Positions 19,863 to 24,659 of a stretch of 64,000 nucleotides of DNA are shown here, in pieces; the stretch's first letter is position 1; the number at the start of each line of letters is the position of its first letter. The notes under the pieces are model-generated. The model was not told where the DNA came from, made no database searches, and saw only the letters and a program-made list of their open reading frames with translations. A program made the position numbers and the translations under genes. The DNA is from Methylolobus aquaticus (GTDB taxonomy: Bacteria; Pseudomonadota; Gammaproteobacteria; Methylococcales; Methylococcaceae): positions 62,001 to 126,000 of the forward strand of contig SEYW01000003.1 of NCBI GenBank assembly GCA_004168015.1, read 5' to 3'.

Positions 19863-22136
19863 ATGCTCAGCAAAGAACTCGAATATTCGTTGAATACGGC
19901 GTTTCGGATGGCCTACGAGAAGCGCCATGAATTCATCACGGTGGAGCATCTCCTGCTGGCCATGCTGGACAACTCGGTGGCCGTGGAAGTGCTGAAGGCC
20001 TGCGGTGGCGACGTCGACGGTTTGCGGCGGGAACTGAACGAATTCCTCGACGAGACCACCCCGCAAATTCCGCCGGGCGTCAAGCGCGAGACCCAGCCGA
20101 CCCTCGGTTTTCAGCGGGTGCTGCAACGGGCGGCCTTCCATGTCCAATCCTCCGGCAAGAAGGAAGTGACCGGCGCCAACGTGCTCGTCGCCATCTTCAG
20201 CGAGCAGGACTCCCATGCCGTCTACCTGCTGAACAAGCAGGACGTGACGCGACTGGACATCGTAAACTACATCTCGCACGGCATCTCGAAAGTTCGTGAC
20301 GAGAGCGAACCGTCACCCCGCGGCGCGGCGCCGGAAGGCGACGACAGCGAAAGCCCCATGGGCAACCCGCTCGAGAAATTCGCCGCGAACCTGAACGAGA
20401 TGGCCCGCAAGGGCAAGATCGACCCACTGATCGGCCGCAAGGACGAAATCGAGCGGACCGTGCAGGTGCTGTGCCGCCGGCGCAAGAACAACCCGCTGCT
20501 GGTCGGCGAGGCCGGCGTCGGCAAGACCGCGATCGCCGAGGGGCTGGCGAAGAAGATCGTCGAGAACGACGTCCCCGAGGTGCTCAAGGACTGCGTGATC
20601 TATGCGCTGGACCTGGGGGCCCTGGTCGCCGGGACGAAATACCGCGGCGACTTCGAAAAGCGTCTGAAGTCATTGCTGGCGCAGTTGCGGAAGGAACCCA
20701 ACTCGATCCTTTTCATCGACGAGATCCACACGATCATCGGCGCCGGCTCGGCCTCGGGCGGCGTCATGGACGCCTCCAACCTGATCAAGCCCGTGCTGGC
20801 TTCGGGCGAACTGCGCTGCATCGGATCGACTACCTACCAGGAGTTCCGGGGTATCTTCGAGAAGGACCGCGCTCTGGCGCGCCGTTTCCAGAAGATCGAC
20901 ATCCACGAACCGACGGTCGAGGAAACCTACCACATCCTGCGTGGGCTCAAGTCGCGCTTCGAGGAACATCACGACGTGAAGTACTCTCTGGCCGCGCTGA
21001 AGACCGCGGCCGAGCTGTCCAGCCGTTACATCAACGACCGCCACCTGCCGGACAAGGCCATCGACGTGATCGACGAGGCCGGCGCGAGCCAACGCCTGCT
21101 GCCGCCGTCACGCCGGCGCAAGCTGATCGGAACGCTGGAAATCGAGGACATCGTCGCGAAGATTGCCAGGATCCCGCCGAAAACCGTGTCGACCAACGAT
21201 AAGGACAAGCTGCGGGAACTCGAGAAGAACCTGAAATTGCTGGTATTCGGCCAGGACGAAGCCATCACGACCCTGGCCTCCGCAATCAAGCTGTCGCGAG
21301 CGGGCCTGCGCGAGACGCAAAAACCGATCGGCGCCTTCCTGTTCGCGGGCCCAACTGGCGTCGGCAAGACCGAGGTGACGCGTCAGCTGGCCCGCGTGCT
21401 GGGTATCGAGCTGATTCGTTTCGACATGTCCGAATACATGGAGCGGCACACGGTGTCGCGTTTGATCGGCGCACCGCCCGGCTACGTCGGCTTCGACCAG
21501 GGCGGGTTGCTGACCGAAGCGATCAACAAGCATCCCCACGCCGTGCTATTGCTCGACGAAATCGAGAAGGCCCACCCGGACGTCTTCAATCTGCTGCTGC
21601 AGGTCATGGATCATGGCACGCTCACGGACAACAACGGCCGCAAAGCGGACTTCCGAAACATCATTCTGGTCATGACGACCAATGCCGGAGCCGCCGAAGG
21701 GGGTCGGCCGTCGATCGGTTTCACGCAGCAGGACCACACGACCGACAGCATGAAGGCCATCGAGCGTCTGTTCTCGCCCGAATTCCGCAACCGCCTCGAC
21801 TCAGCGATTCAGTTCAAACCGCTGAACATCGAAATCATCGGGCAAGTCGTGGACAAGTTCATCTTCGAGCTCGAAACACAGCTCGCCGAGAAAAGCGTGT
21901 CGCTGGCGCTCGAGCCGGACGCGCGGCAGTGGCTGGCGGAGCATGGCTTCGATCCGCGAATGGGCGCACGGCCGATGGCGCGCGTCATTCAGGACAATAT
22001 CAAGAAGCCGCTGGCAGAAGAGATTCTGTTCGGAACGCTCAAGGCGGGCGGCATCGTCCGTATCGCCCTGGCCGCGGACGGCGCGGGGCTGACCCTGGAC
22101 GTTAGGAATACCGAACGGGCAGTGGAAACGGTGTAG
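19863..22136 (+). CDS. clpA: ATP-dependent Clp protease ATP-binding subunit
   Basis: 757 residues, full length. N-domain (about 1-145), a charged linker rich in Glu/Asp/Ser around 140-165, NBD1 with [12 protein letters not shown]2 with GPTGVGKTE, and the ClpP-docking IGF loop (RPSIGFTQQ, about residue 617). The middle M-domain of ClpB/ClpC is absent, confirming ClpA. It unfolds substrates for ClpP; clpP is not in the window. Convergent with infA, with 28 bases between the stops. Confidence 0.97.
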
Positions 22137-22164: not shown

Positions 22165-22383
22165 TTAGCGCTGACGGAAGGTGATGCGGCCTTTCGTCAA
22201 ATCGTACGGAGTCATCTCGACTTTCACGCGGTCGCCGGTCAGGATGCGGATGTAGTTCTTGCGCATCTTGCCGGAGATGTGGGCCGTGATGATATGTCCG
22301 TTATCGAGCTGGACCCGAAACGTCGTGTTGGGCAGGGTCTCGATGACCTTACCCTCCATCTCCAGATGATCTTCTTTCGCCAT
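22165..22383 (-). CDS. infA: Translation initiation factor IF-1
   Basis: 72 residues, the exact standard length, starting [18 protein letters not shown] and ending in [11 protein letters not shown] single S1-like OB fold; binds the 30S A site during initiation. Longer upstream in-frame starts are rejected because IF-1 is almost invariant at its N-terminus. Neighbouring clpA is the conserved gammaproteobacterial arrangement. An extended -10 promoter and a palindrome lie upstream. Confidence 0.98.
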
Positions 22384-22464: not shown

Positions 22465-22699
22465 GCAAGCAGGCGTCGTCAAGTCGCGCTGTTACCCCTC
22501 TCTCAGCGGTGCCGAAAATTCGGCCCGGTTCCCCAACCGTAATGCGCTGCGATCCGTAAGGCGCACACCGCTGTCGCGGTGCTCATGGAGCGAATTCCCG
22601 CTGTTTGATGGCAGTTCGACACCTGCAACCGGTATCCTGTCACCGGCCCAATGCGGGCCTGTCGTAGGACAAGACTCTAGTCGCATCGGAGATTCCGCC

Positions 22700-23650
22700 G
22701 TGAAGCCAGCTTTCAAATGGACATTGATCGGATTCCTGCTCACCGCAGCGCCAAGCCTTCTCGCCGCGGAGATGATCCGCCGGGAACCCATCCATTTCGC
22801 CAAGGGCGCCACCGGCGCTAGCGTCAAGGGCACGCTCAAGGGCGCCCAGACCGTCGACTATCTGTTGAAGGCCAAGGCCGGCCAGTCGATGACCGTGGAC
22901 TTCAAGCCGAGCAATGCCTCCGCTTACTTCAACGTTCTGCCGCCCGGGTCCGAGACCGCACTGTTCGTGGGATCGACCTCCGGCAACCATTTCGTCGGCG
23001 AGTTGCTCGCGGGTGGTCAGTACACGGTCCGGGTGTACCTGATGCGCAGCGCAGCGCGACGCAACGAAACGGCCAAGTATTCGCTCGACCTGGCGATCGC
23101 GGGCGCCAACACAACCGCCGGAGCGGCGACCACACCCGCGACGGGCGGCGGCGGATTCGACCGTAAGTTGGAACTGAACGGCATCCGCTTCCACGTCTCA
23201 AGCAGGAACGACGGCTCCCAAAATACCCTCCGAATCGCCCCAAACGGACTCGAAATCGACAACGCTCCGATCGTCCGGACCATTGACGGCACCGTGACGG
23301 GCGCGGAAGTCGCCGACATCAATGCCGATCGCTCGCCCGAACTGTATGTCTATGTGACATCGGCCGGCAGCGGCTCTTACGGCACGCTCGTCGCGTACTC
23401 CGCCAATCGTCGCAAATCGCTGAGCGAGATCTATCTGCCGTCCGTCGCCGAGGACGCAAAGCTGGGAAAGGGCTACATGGGGCATGACGAGTTCGCCGTG
23501 GTCGAGAGTACCTTCGTCCAACGCTTTCCCGTTTACCGGGAGGGTGACAGCAACGGCAAGCCCACGGGCGGTACTCGGCAGATTCAATACAGACTCAAGC
23601 AAGGCGAGGCCGGCTGGCTGTTGAAGATGGATCGGGTCGTCGAGTACTGA
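22700..23650 (+). CDS. Periplasmic lysozyme inhibitor, apparent PliG-PliI fusion
   Basis: 316 residues from the GTG at 22700 (GGAG upstream). Signal peptide to about residue 23 (TLIGFLLTAAPSLLAAE). Residues about 25-133 resemble the g-type lysozyme inhibitor PliG (E. coli YcgK), ending TVRVYLMRSAARRNETAKYS. An Ala/Thr/Gly linker follows (about 134-151). Residues about 152-316 match the i-type inhibitor PliI: FDRKLELNGIRFHVSS, GYMGHDEFAVVESTFVQRFP, RQIQYRLKQGEA and the inhibitory SGxY motif at Ser224-Tyr227. Both known families block host or grazer lysozymes in the periplasm. The N-terminal domain is a close paralogue of the next gene. The fusion reading is based on recognised motifs, not on a search. 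Confidence 0.8.
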   Translation: MKPAFKWTLIGFLLTAAPSLLAAEMIRREPIHFAKGATGASVKGTLKGAQTVDYLLKAKAGQSMTVDFKPSNASAYFNVLPPGSETALFVGSTSGNHFVGELLAGGQYTVRVYLMRSAARRNETAKYSLDLAIAGANTTAGAATTPATGGGGFDRKLELNGIRFHVSSRNDGSQNTLRIAPNGLEIDNAPIVRTIDGTVTGAEVADINADRSPELYVYVTSAGSGSYGTLVAYSANRRKSLSEIYLPSVAEDAKLGKGYMGHDEFAVVESTFVQRFPVYREGDSNGKPTGGTRQIQYRLKQGEAGWLLKMDRVVEY

Positions 23651-23992
23651 ATAACCCGGCGACCGTAGCCTCGGGCCATGTCGTCGGCCCGACGCCGGAC
23701 TCGATCACCCGGACCGACGGCCGAAAGCGATCGCCCTCTGCGGATTTCCACCGCACGGTCTGCCTGCTCTGAAGCGAAAGGTAGCAACTTACCGAGCGAC
23801 TCCGTAGGTATGTGATCTGCCAACGCGTCGACCGAGCGATGTTCCCGGCTACAGCCGACTGAAGCGGCTAATCGGAAGGAATAGCGGCCCTTCCTGTATC
23901 ATACGGCTTAGGCAATATATCGGGACGGTTTCGGTCCGATGCGGGCTGACAGCCGCACCAGTCCCCTTTGTCACACAGCAGGAACCAATTCC
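23651..23992. other. Intergenic stretch between the two lysozyme-inhibitor genes
   Basis: 342 bp without a supported gene. A local AT-rich patch at about 23890-23920 (TTCCTGTATCATACGG ... AATATA) could be the promoter of the second inhibitor gene, with hexamers that match consensus only loosely. No terminator hairpin with a T-tract was seen after the first gene. Confidence 0.4.
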
Positions 23993-24400
23993 GTGAAACG
24001 ATACGCCCCACTCGCGTTCGCGTGCCTCGGCCTGTTGGCCTCGCCCGCCTGGGCCGACAACGCCATCCAGCAGAAGACGGTGCAGTTTGCCAAAGGCAAA
24101 GACAGCATCACACTGAAAGGTCACATCAAGGGCGACCAGACCATCGACTACAAACTCGTGGCTCGGGAAGGACAGACCATGACGGTGACGCTGAAGTCCA
24201 GCAATCGCATGAATTATTTCAATATCCTGCCACCGGGAGCTGACTCTGCCCTGTTCGTCAGCGCCGACTCCAGCAACCACTATTCCGGGGCACTGCCGAA
24301 GAACGGAAGCTATACCGTGCGCGTTTACCTGATGCGCGCCGCAGCGCGTCGCAACGAGGCCGCCGACTACAGCCTCGACATCCGCATCACCGGGCATTGA
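23993..24400 (+). CDS. PliG-like lysozyme inhibitor, single domain
   Basis: 135 residues from a GTG at 23993 with AGGA upstream. Signal peptide ends near AWADN. The mature part parallels the N-terminal domain of the preceding gene throughout: VQFAKGKDSITLKGHIKGDQ, YFNILPPGADSALFVS, and YTVRVYLMRAAARRNEA. This ending corresponds to the C-terminal strand region of E. coli PliG (YcgK). It presumably protects peptidoglycan from g-type lysozyme in the periplasm. It looks like a tandem duplicate of a PliG domain; which copy is ancestral cannot be told. Confidence 0.75.
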   Translation: MKRYAPLAFACLGLLASPAWADNAIQQKTVQFAKGKDSITLKGHIKGDQTIDYKLVAREGQTMTVTLKSSNRMNYFNILPPGADSALFVSADSSNHYSGALPKNGSYTVRVYLMRAAARRNEAADYSLDIRITGH

Positions 24401-24495: not shown

Positions 24496-24659
24496 GCTGA
24501 CCGGGCTACCGGGTCAACCTGAGGAATGGTCTCAACTGTGGGAAAAGCCACCGGATCGCACCAAGGGCACGTTCCCCGGCGGCGGCAGCAGTCTCCTGAC
24601 CTGCTCCCGCCCGAACGCAATCCCCGATTCCAGTGAGGCCCGGCGGCAACGCAAAGTCG

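Follow-up and report, generated by a model that had tools for sequence, protein, structure and literature searches.

A predicted secreted two-domain protein and a lone PliG are encoded side by side

The window analyzed here is a 64,000-nucleotide stretch of contig SEYW01000003.1 from Methylolobus aquaticus, whose genome assembly spans 3.39 Mb, is 89.5% complete, and has Methylotetracoccus oryzae strain C50C1 as the nearest relative found. On the forward strand of this window, positions 22700..23650 encode a 316-residue protein with a GTG start codon and a GGAG ribosome site ~9 bases upstream. A signal peptide (residues 1-23, 22700..22768), judged by eye to be type I (KPAFKW, a hydrophobic stretch, then LLAA/E), is followed by a PliG domain (residues 24-136, 22769..23107) that contains the YTVRVYLMRSAARRNETAKY motif, a linker (23108..23155), and a PliI-like domain (residues 153-316, 23156..23647) that carries an SGSY loop at residues 224-227 (23369-23380). 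The linker is rich in Ala/Thr/Gly and predicted to be disordered, with model confidence <50 for residues 136-150 and a sequence that varies among fusions; model confidence is also low for residues 1-24, in the signal-peptide region. A preliminary description of this DNA had proposed just such an order of parts within one protein, with an SGxY motif at Ser224-Tyr227, and both the profile searches and the predicted fold described below bear this out.

Downstream and on the same strand, a second gene with a GTG start and an upstream AGGA (23993..24400) encodes a 135-residue protein predicted to be secreted. Its signal peptide has an A-x-A type site (AWA/D), as does that of the fusion (LLAA/E), both assigned by eye only. 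This protein matches Aeromonas hydrophila PliG (4dzg) with E=3.4e-21 in a phmmer search of the PDB and shares 55% identity with the PliG domain of the fusion (alignment A3), in agreement with the earlier proposal that the neighbor is a lone PliG-like protein paralleling the first domain. The two copies fall on separate branches, and the fused domain is closer to the PliG of another fusion, that of L032 (66% identity), so a recent duplication of the fused domain is not supported as the origin of the lone PliG. In the 342-base gap between the two genes (23651..23992), no promoter or terminator consensus exceeds chance expectation. Judged from sequence, the flanking genes are clpA (19863-22136, forward strand) and infA (reverse strand, ending at 22165) upstream of the fusion, and an RND efflux operon starting at 24633 downstream of the lone PliG.

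The N-terminal domain is PliG

In phmmer searches of the PDB, the best match of the N-terminal domain was A. hydrophila PliG (4dzg, E=9.8e-20), followed by the PliG proteins of E. coli and Salmonella (5e-9 to 5e-7), with no other credible match. A 31-sequence profile built from alignment A3 matched A. hydrophila PliG at 2.2e-24 and other PliG at ~3e-14, while its best non-PliG match was a collagenase binding domain (E 1.3e-4). A mixed alignment (A1) placed rows with PliG alone wrongly and was left out. We used only the PliG part and linker of the full-length fold prediction, which was made from six rows and has an overall pLDDT of 62; pLDDT of the PliG domain is mostly 70-90. The top six PDB matches of this domain in Foldseek were all PliG (4dzg: TM 0.88 on the target, rmsd 1.6 A), against a TM of 0.63 for collagenase/PPC domains, and Pfam gave no PPC match in proteins P0001-P0004. 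The possibility raised beforehand, that another family such as PPC or a generic beta-sandwich would fit this domain better than PliG, therefore failed by both profile and fold, with collagenase/PPC domains next in rank and far behind. By homology and fold, the domain is PliG.

The relationship to the characterized proteins from A. hydrophila (4dzg), E. coli (YcgK/PliG; 4dy3, 4g9s), and Salmonella (4dy5) extends over their full length and includes the same beta-sandwich, probable secretion, and the conserved pattern G-x-Y-x-x-(R/Q)-V ... R-x-x-A-R-(R/K), which appears as R-x-x-A-R-R-N in the PliG alignment and may include residues that contact lysozyme. Known PliG proteins consist of a single domain, whereas here one PliG is joined to a PliI-like domain and another stands alone beside it. 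No model in Pfam or NCBIfam matches the PliG domain, which could account for its being easily overlooked.

The C-terminal domain belongs to a longer PliI-like subfamily

The C-terminal domain matches the Pfam PliI family (PF16743) with 35.6 bits, above the cut-off of 27, and the PDB structure of A. hydrophila PliI (PliI-Ah, 3od9) with E=8.7e-6. An AlphaFold2 model made from 38 sequences is confident (pLDDT 93.8, pTM 0.89), and its first five PDB matches in Foldseek are all PliI-Ah (probability 1.00, TM 0.55-0.57 over ~103 columns). PliI-Ah (3od9, 4pj2) has the same core fold as this domain and a SAGSGSY loop that matches it residue for residue. Within that loop, which is inhibitory in PliI-Ah, Ser104 contacts the catalytic Glu18 of i-type lysozyme (PMC10933484), which makes the SGSY loop the best handle on mechanism.

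Unlike PliI-Ah, which measures ~120 residues in its structure, the domain is ~165 residues long, and ~60 of these have no counterpart in PliI-Ah. The PF16743 match is confined to positions 52-101 of the 123 in the model, and the C-terminal half carries its own conserved pattern (GYMGHDEFAVVE..RRF..RQ.QY.L..GEA), kept across Pseudomonadota, Acidobacteriota, Bacteroidota, Verrucomicrobiota, and Cyanobacteriota. Mean column identity across phyla is 63% and is highest in this half, which canonical PliI does not match. The initial assignment as a full PliI domain was thus too strong: this is a distinct, longer, non-canonical PliI-like subfamily. SGxY is present in 46 of 60 members and absent from the other 14, which include two fusions (L034 and L113); members without the loop may act otherwise. 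Together with the strong cross-phylum conservation of the C-terminal half, this loss suggests that the subfamily may do more than act on i-type lysozyme, or do something else entirely, and it counts against the double-inhibitor reading given below.

The two domains could also be generic binding modules, a PPC-like beta-sandwich and a small propeller-like domain that have no inhibitory activity and whose ligand is peptidoglycan, sugar, or some other surface component. That 14 of the 60 members have lost SGxY would fit such a role, as would the weak FG-GAP matches within the PliI-like domain, the position of PPC/collagen-binding domains as the next structural neighbors of PliG, and the occurrence of PliG alongside SH3 or LysM-like segments in some proteins. 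We nonetheless consider it quite improbable, given an inhibitory loop identical to that of PliI-Ah, the wide margin by which PliG is the top match of the first domain, and the first rank of PliI-Ah for the second.

A second alternative is that these are immunity-type proteins that neutralize peptidoglycan hydrolases injected by rival bacteria. Orphan immunity genes of this kind do not depend on a secretion system in the same genome. The Xanthomonas type IV secretion immunity protein X-Tfi(XAC2610) and the type VI secretion protein Tsi1 share with PliI-Ah both its topology and a loop that plugs the active site (PMC10933484), and this common mechanism favors the idea. Each of these proteins is paired with a cognate effector, and neither shows a detectable sequence match to the C-terminal domain, for which our sequence search recovered PliI-Ah. 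No effector gene lies beside the fusion, whose neighbors are clpA, infA, and RND efflux genes, and neither type VI VipB nor type IV TrbI/VirB10 was found in the 89.5% complete source genome. On balance, an immunity function appears very improbable.

The fusion is constrained but evolves faster than its neighbors

A 10.96 kb region around both genes is collinear in M. oryzae and 95.6% identical. Across this comparison, the fusion has a dN/dS of 0.18 and the lone PliG one of 0.10, with values of 0.02-0.12 among the neighbors. Together, the conserved gene order and these ratios show that the fusion and the lone PliG are real, selected genes. The fusion is under purifying selection and is changing faster than its neighbors: it is 89.8% identical to its M. 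oryzae counterpart at the protein level, compared to 96.3% for the lone PliG and 97-99.6% for the flanking genes, and its dN of 0.056 is the highest among the syntenic genes compared (0.002-0.017 for the others). In the PliI part dS reaches 0.44, versus 0.03-0.17; recombination may have contributed to this, along with constraint that is relaxed or shifting. Divergence from M. oryzae is 7-18% over positions 22495-23694, comprising the fusion and its upstream region, versus mostly 1-5% in the flanks; recombination or replacement of this segment is possible.

The fusion is rare and scattered among distant bacteria

We found the fusion in six genomes belonging to five groups. The source genome and M. 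oryzae form the first, and the others are a metagenome-assembled genome (MAG) labeled as a cyanobacterium (L032, on a 6.6 kb contig and possibly mis-binned), an Arenicellales MAG (L033), a Comamonadaceae MAG (L034, on a 254 kb contig), and one other gammaproteobacterium. About 24-25 of 300-301 genomes from the same order match some part of the protein, and M. oryzae alone among them has the fusion. Of 396 other genomes of the phylum, 29 match and one carries it (G676/L113). L032, L033, and L034 came from a scan of 84,980 species genomes, which was seeded by short exact peptide patterns, so its counts are lower bounds. In three further genomes (L014, L051, and L122), PliG and PliI genes are adjacent yet separate. 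Phages, plasmids, and viral contigs yielded single PliG or PliI matches only, giving no support to carriage of the fusion by phages or plasmids.

The architecture had been flagged at the outset as unusual, and this distribution agrees: the fusion is real, rare, and scattered among distant bacteria. Our literature search, which left most subscription papers outside its scope, found no paper describing a PliG-PliI fusion. A protein with two inhibitor domains is not without precedent, since a lipoprotein of Mycobacterium tuberculosis, LprI, combines an LprI and an MliC domain, both named as lysozyme inhibitors, in one secreted protein (PMC7933661). That lipoprotein draws on other domain families and lacks the g-type plus i-type pairing. 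By itself, an LprI domain does not necessarily inhibit lysozyme (PMC7933661).

The origin of the fusion was assessed on the PliI tree; the PliG tree lacks resolution. Fusions do not form one clade on this tree and require five changes; 0% of bootstrap trees require only one, and the supported branches force at least two. The L033 protein, for example, lies inside a supported group of proteins without PliG. A single origin is therefore unsupported on the PliI tree, and repeated fusion, or an old fusion followed by losses and transfer, both fit the data.

PliI-like and PliG domains recur with other partners

Among 59 distinct PliI-like proteins, 34 lack a long N-terminal partner, six have PliG, eight have a domain that we term SQRQG, two have LprI, one has MliC plus another domain, and the rest have other or unclassified extensions; these counts are pattern-based and come from a sample biased by the query. 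A Sulfurovum MAG (L058:468-1340) encodes an LprI domain joined to a PliI-like domain, both above the Pfam cut-off, and in L067 LprI passes the cut-off with PliI below it at 20.9 bits. A Draconibacterium MAG (L064:4266-5492) encodes MliC, an unknown domain, and a PliI-like domain, with MliC and PliI above the cut-off. With the same PliI-like domain joined to LprI and MliC elsewhere, multi-inhibitor fusions look modular. We can suggest only tentatively that lysozyme-inhibitor domains make up a combinatorial toolkit, in which a conserved PliI-like module would be combined, in different lineages, with PliG, LprI, MliC, or at least one undescribed domain (SQRQG). The resulting poly-inhibitors would each be suited to more than one peptidoglycan hydrolase, and partners that are so far undescribed would represent new inhibitor families.

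The SQRQG domain is an undescribed segment of ~90 residues (C..C-x-F-S-Q-R-Q-G .. G-L-G .. V-x-V-Y-W) with two invariant cysteines, found N-terminal to the PliI-like domain in eight genomes (L037, L012, L050, L052, L054, L065, L074, and L082). It has no match in the PDB and, in L054, none in Pfam, and by association it is a candidate new inhibitor family. The other partners of the PliI-like domain likewise hint at candidate inhibitor families that are undescribed. A second undescribed domain, YHATG..C.FGVIR..IPDAVI.GG, is very often found C-terminal of PliG (L075, L077, L080, L083, L085, L086, L089, L090-L092, L095, L097, L100, L102, and L105), in two cases with an SH3-like segment between the two (L020 and L130). 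It has no credible match in Pfam or the PDB, and homology between the YHATG and SQRQG domains found no support. A Chthonomonas MAG (Armatimonadota; L110:4893-6053) encodes a protein with three consecutive PliG-like domains, and in Rhodoferax (L087:4956-7370) PliG is fused to a segment that by eye resembles an M13 (neprilysin-type) metallopeptidase.

A putative periplasmic inhibitor of two lysozyme classes

PliG and PliI are periplasmic proteins that each guard against their own class of lysozyme, and E. coli benefits from pliG in the hemolymph of mussels (PMC3458809; PMC10609593). We think it somewhat probable that the fusion is a secreted periplasmic double inhibitor of g- and i-type lysozymes that protects peptidoglycan. 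Binding by the N-terminal PliG domain would plug g-type (GH23) lysozymes, and the SGSY loop of the C-terminal domain would enter the active site of i-type lysozymes in the manner of Ser104 in PliI-Ah, which contacts Glu18 of its target. The flexible linker would let the two domains act independently, and perhaps simultaneously, and the neighboring lone PliG would add g-type capacity. Periplasmic peptidoglycan would in this way be protected from animal or predator lysozymes that cross the outer membrane. The identical SAGSGSY loop, the highest dN of the compared genes, the adjacent PliG and PliI genes of three genomes, and the LprI and MliC fusions all count in favor of double inhibition. As to the ecological cause of the fusion, selection by grazers or hosts, as proposed at the outset, is plausible but was put too strongly there, given that the lone PliG is not supported as a recent duplicate and that endogenous peptidoglycan enzymes are possible targets. 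We found no host or grazer link to the fusion, which counts against double inhibition.

PliG domains are often joined to C-terminal SH3 domains, an arrangement that also fits an endogenous, wall-associated role and so argues against inhibition of foreign lysozymes. This is the main rival explanation: both domains might restrain the cell's own peptidoglycan hydrolases, chiefly the GH23 lytic transglycosylases, which share a glycoside hydrolase family with g-type lysozymes. Four SLT (GH23) proteins score above the cut-off in the source genome, the PliI-like domain is strongly conserved between phyla, and Pseudomonas aeruginosa Ivy inhibits MltB, a precedent from which it has been proposed that lytic transglycosylases are the main enzymes controlled by such inhibitors (PMC10746161). 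These enzymes are almost universal, however, whereas only about 25 of 301 order-mates match any part of the fusion; moreover, no peptidoglycan gene adjoins the fusion, and it is the fastest-changing gene of the locus. We regard endogenous control as unlikely.

The characterized PliG and PliI proteins are single domains that each act on one lysozyme class. If the fusion is instead a double inhibitor, it would be a natural bispecific one, and could serve as a trap for both lysozyme classes. That its carrier is a methanotroph, not an animal pathogen, bears on whether such proteins arose against host immunity, against grazers, or in control of a cell's own wall enzymes. Elsewhere in the source genome (G000:C28:243484-243597; L112), an MliC-like match of 21 bits, below the cut-off of 22, may represent a c-type inhibitor.
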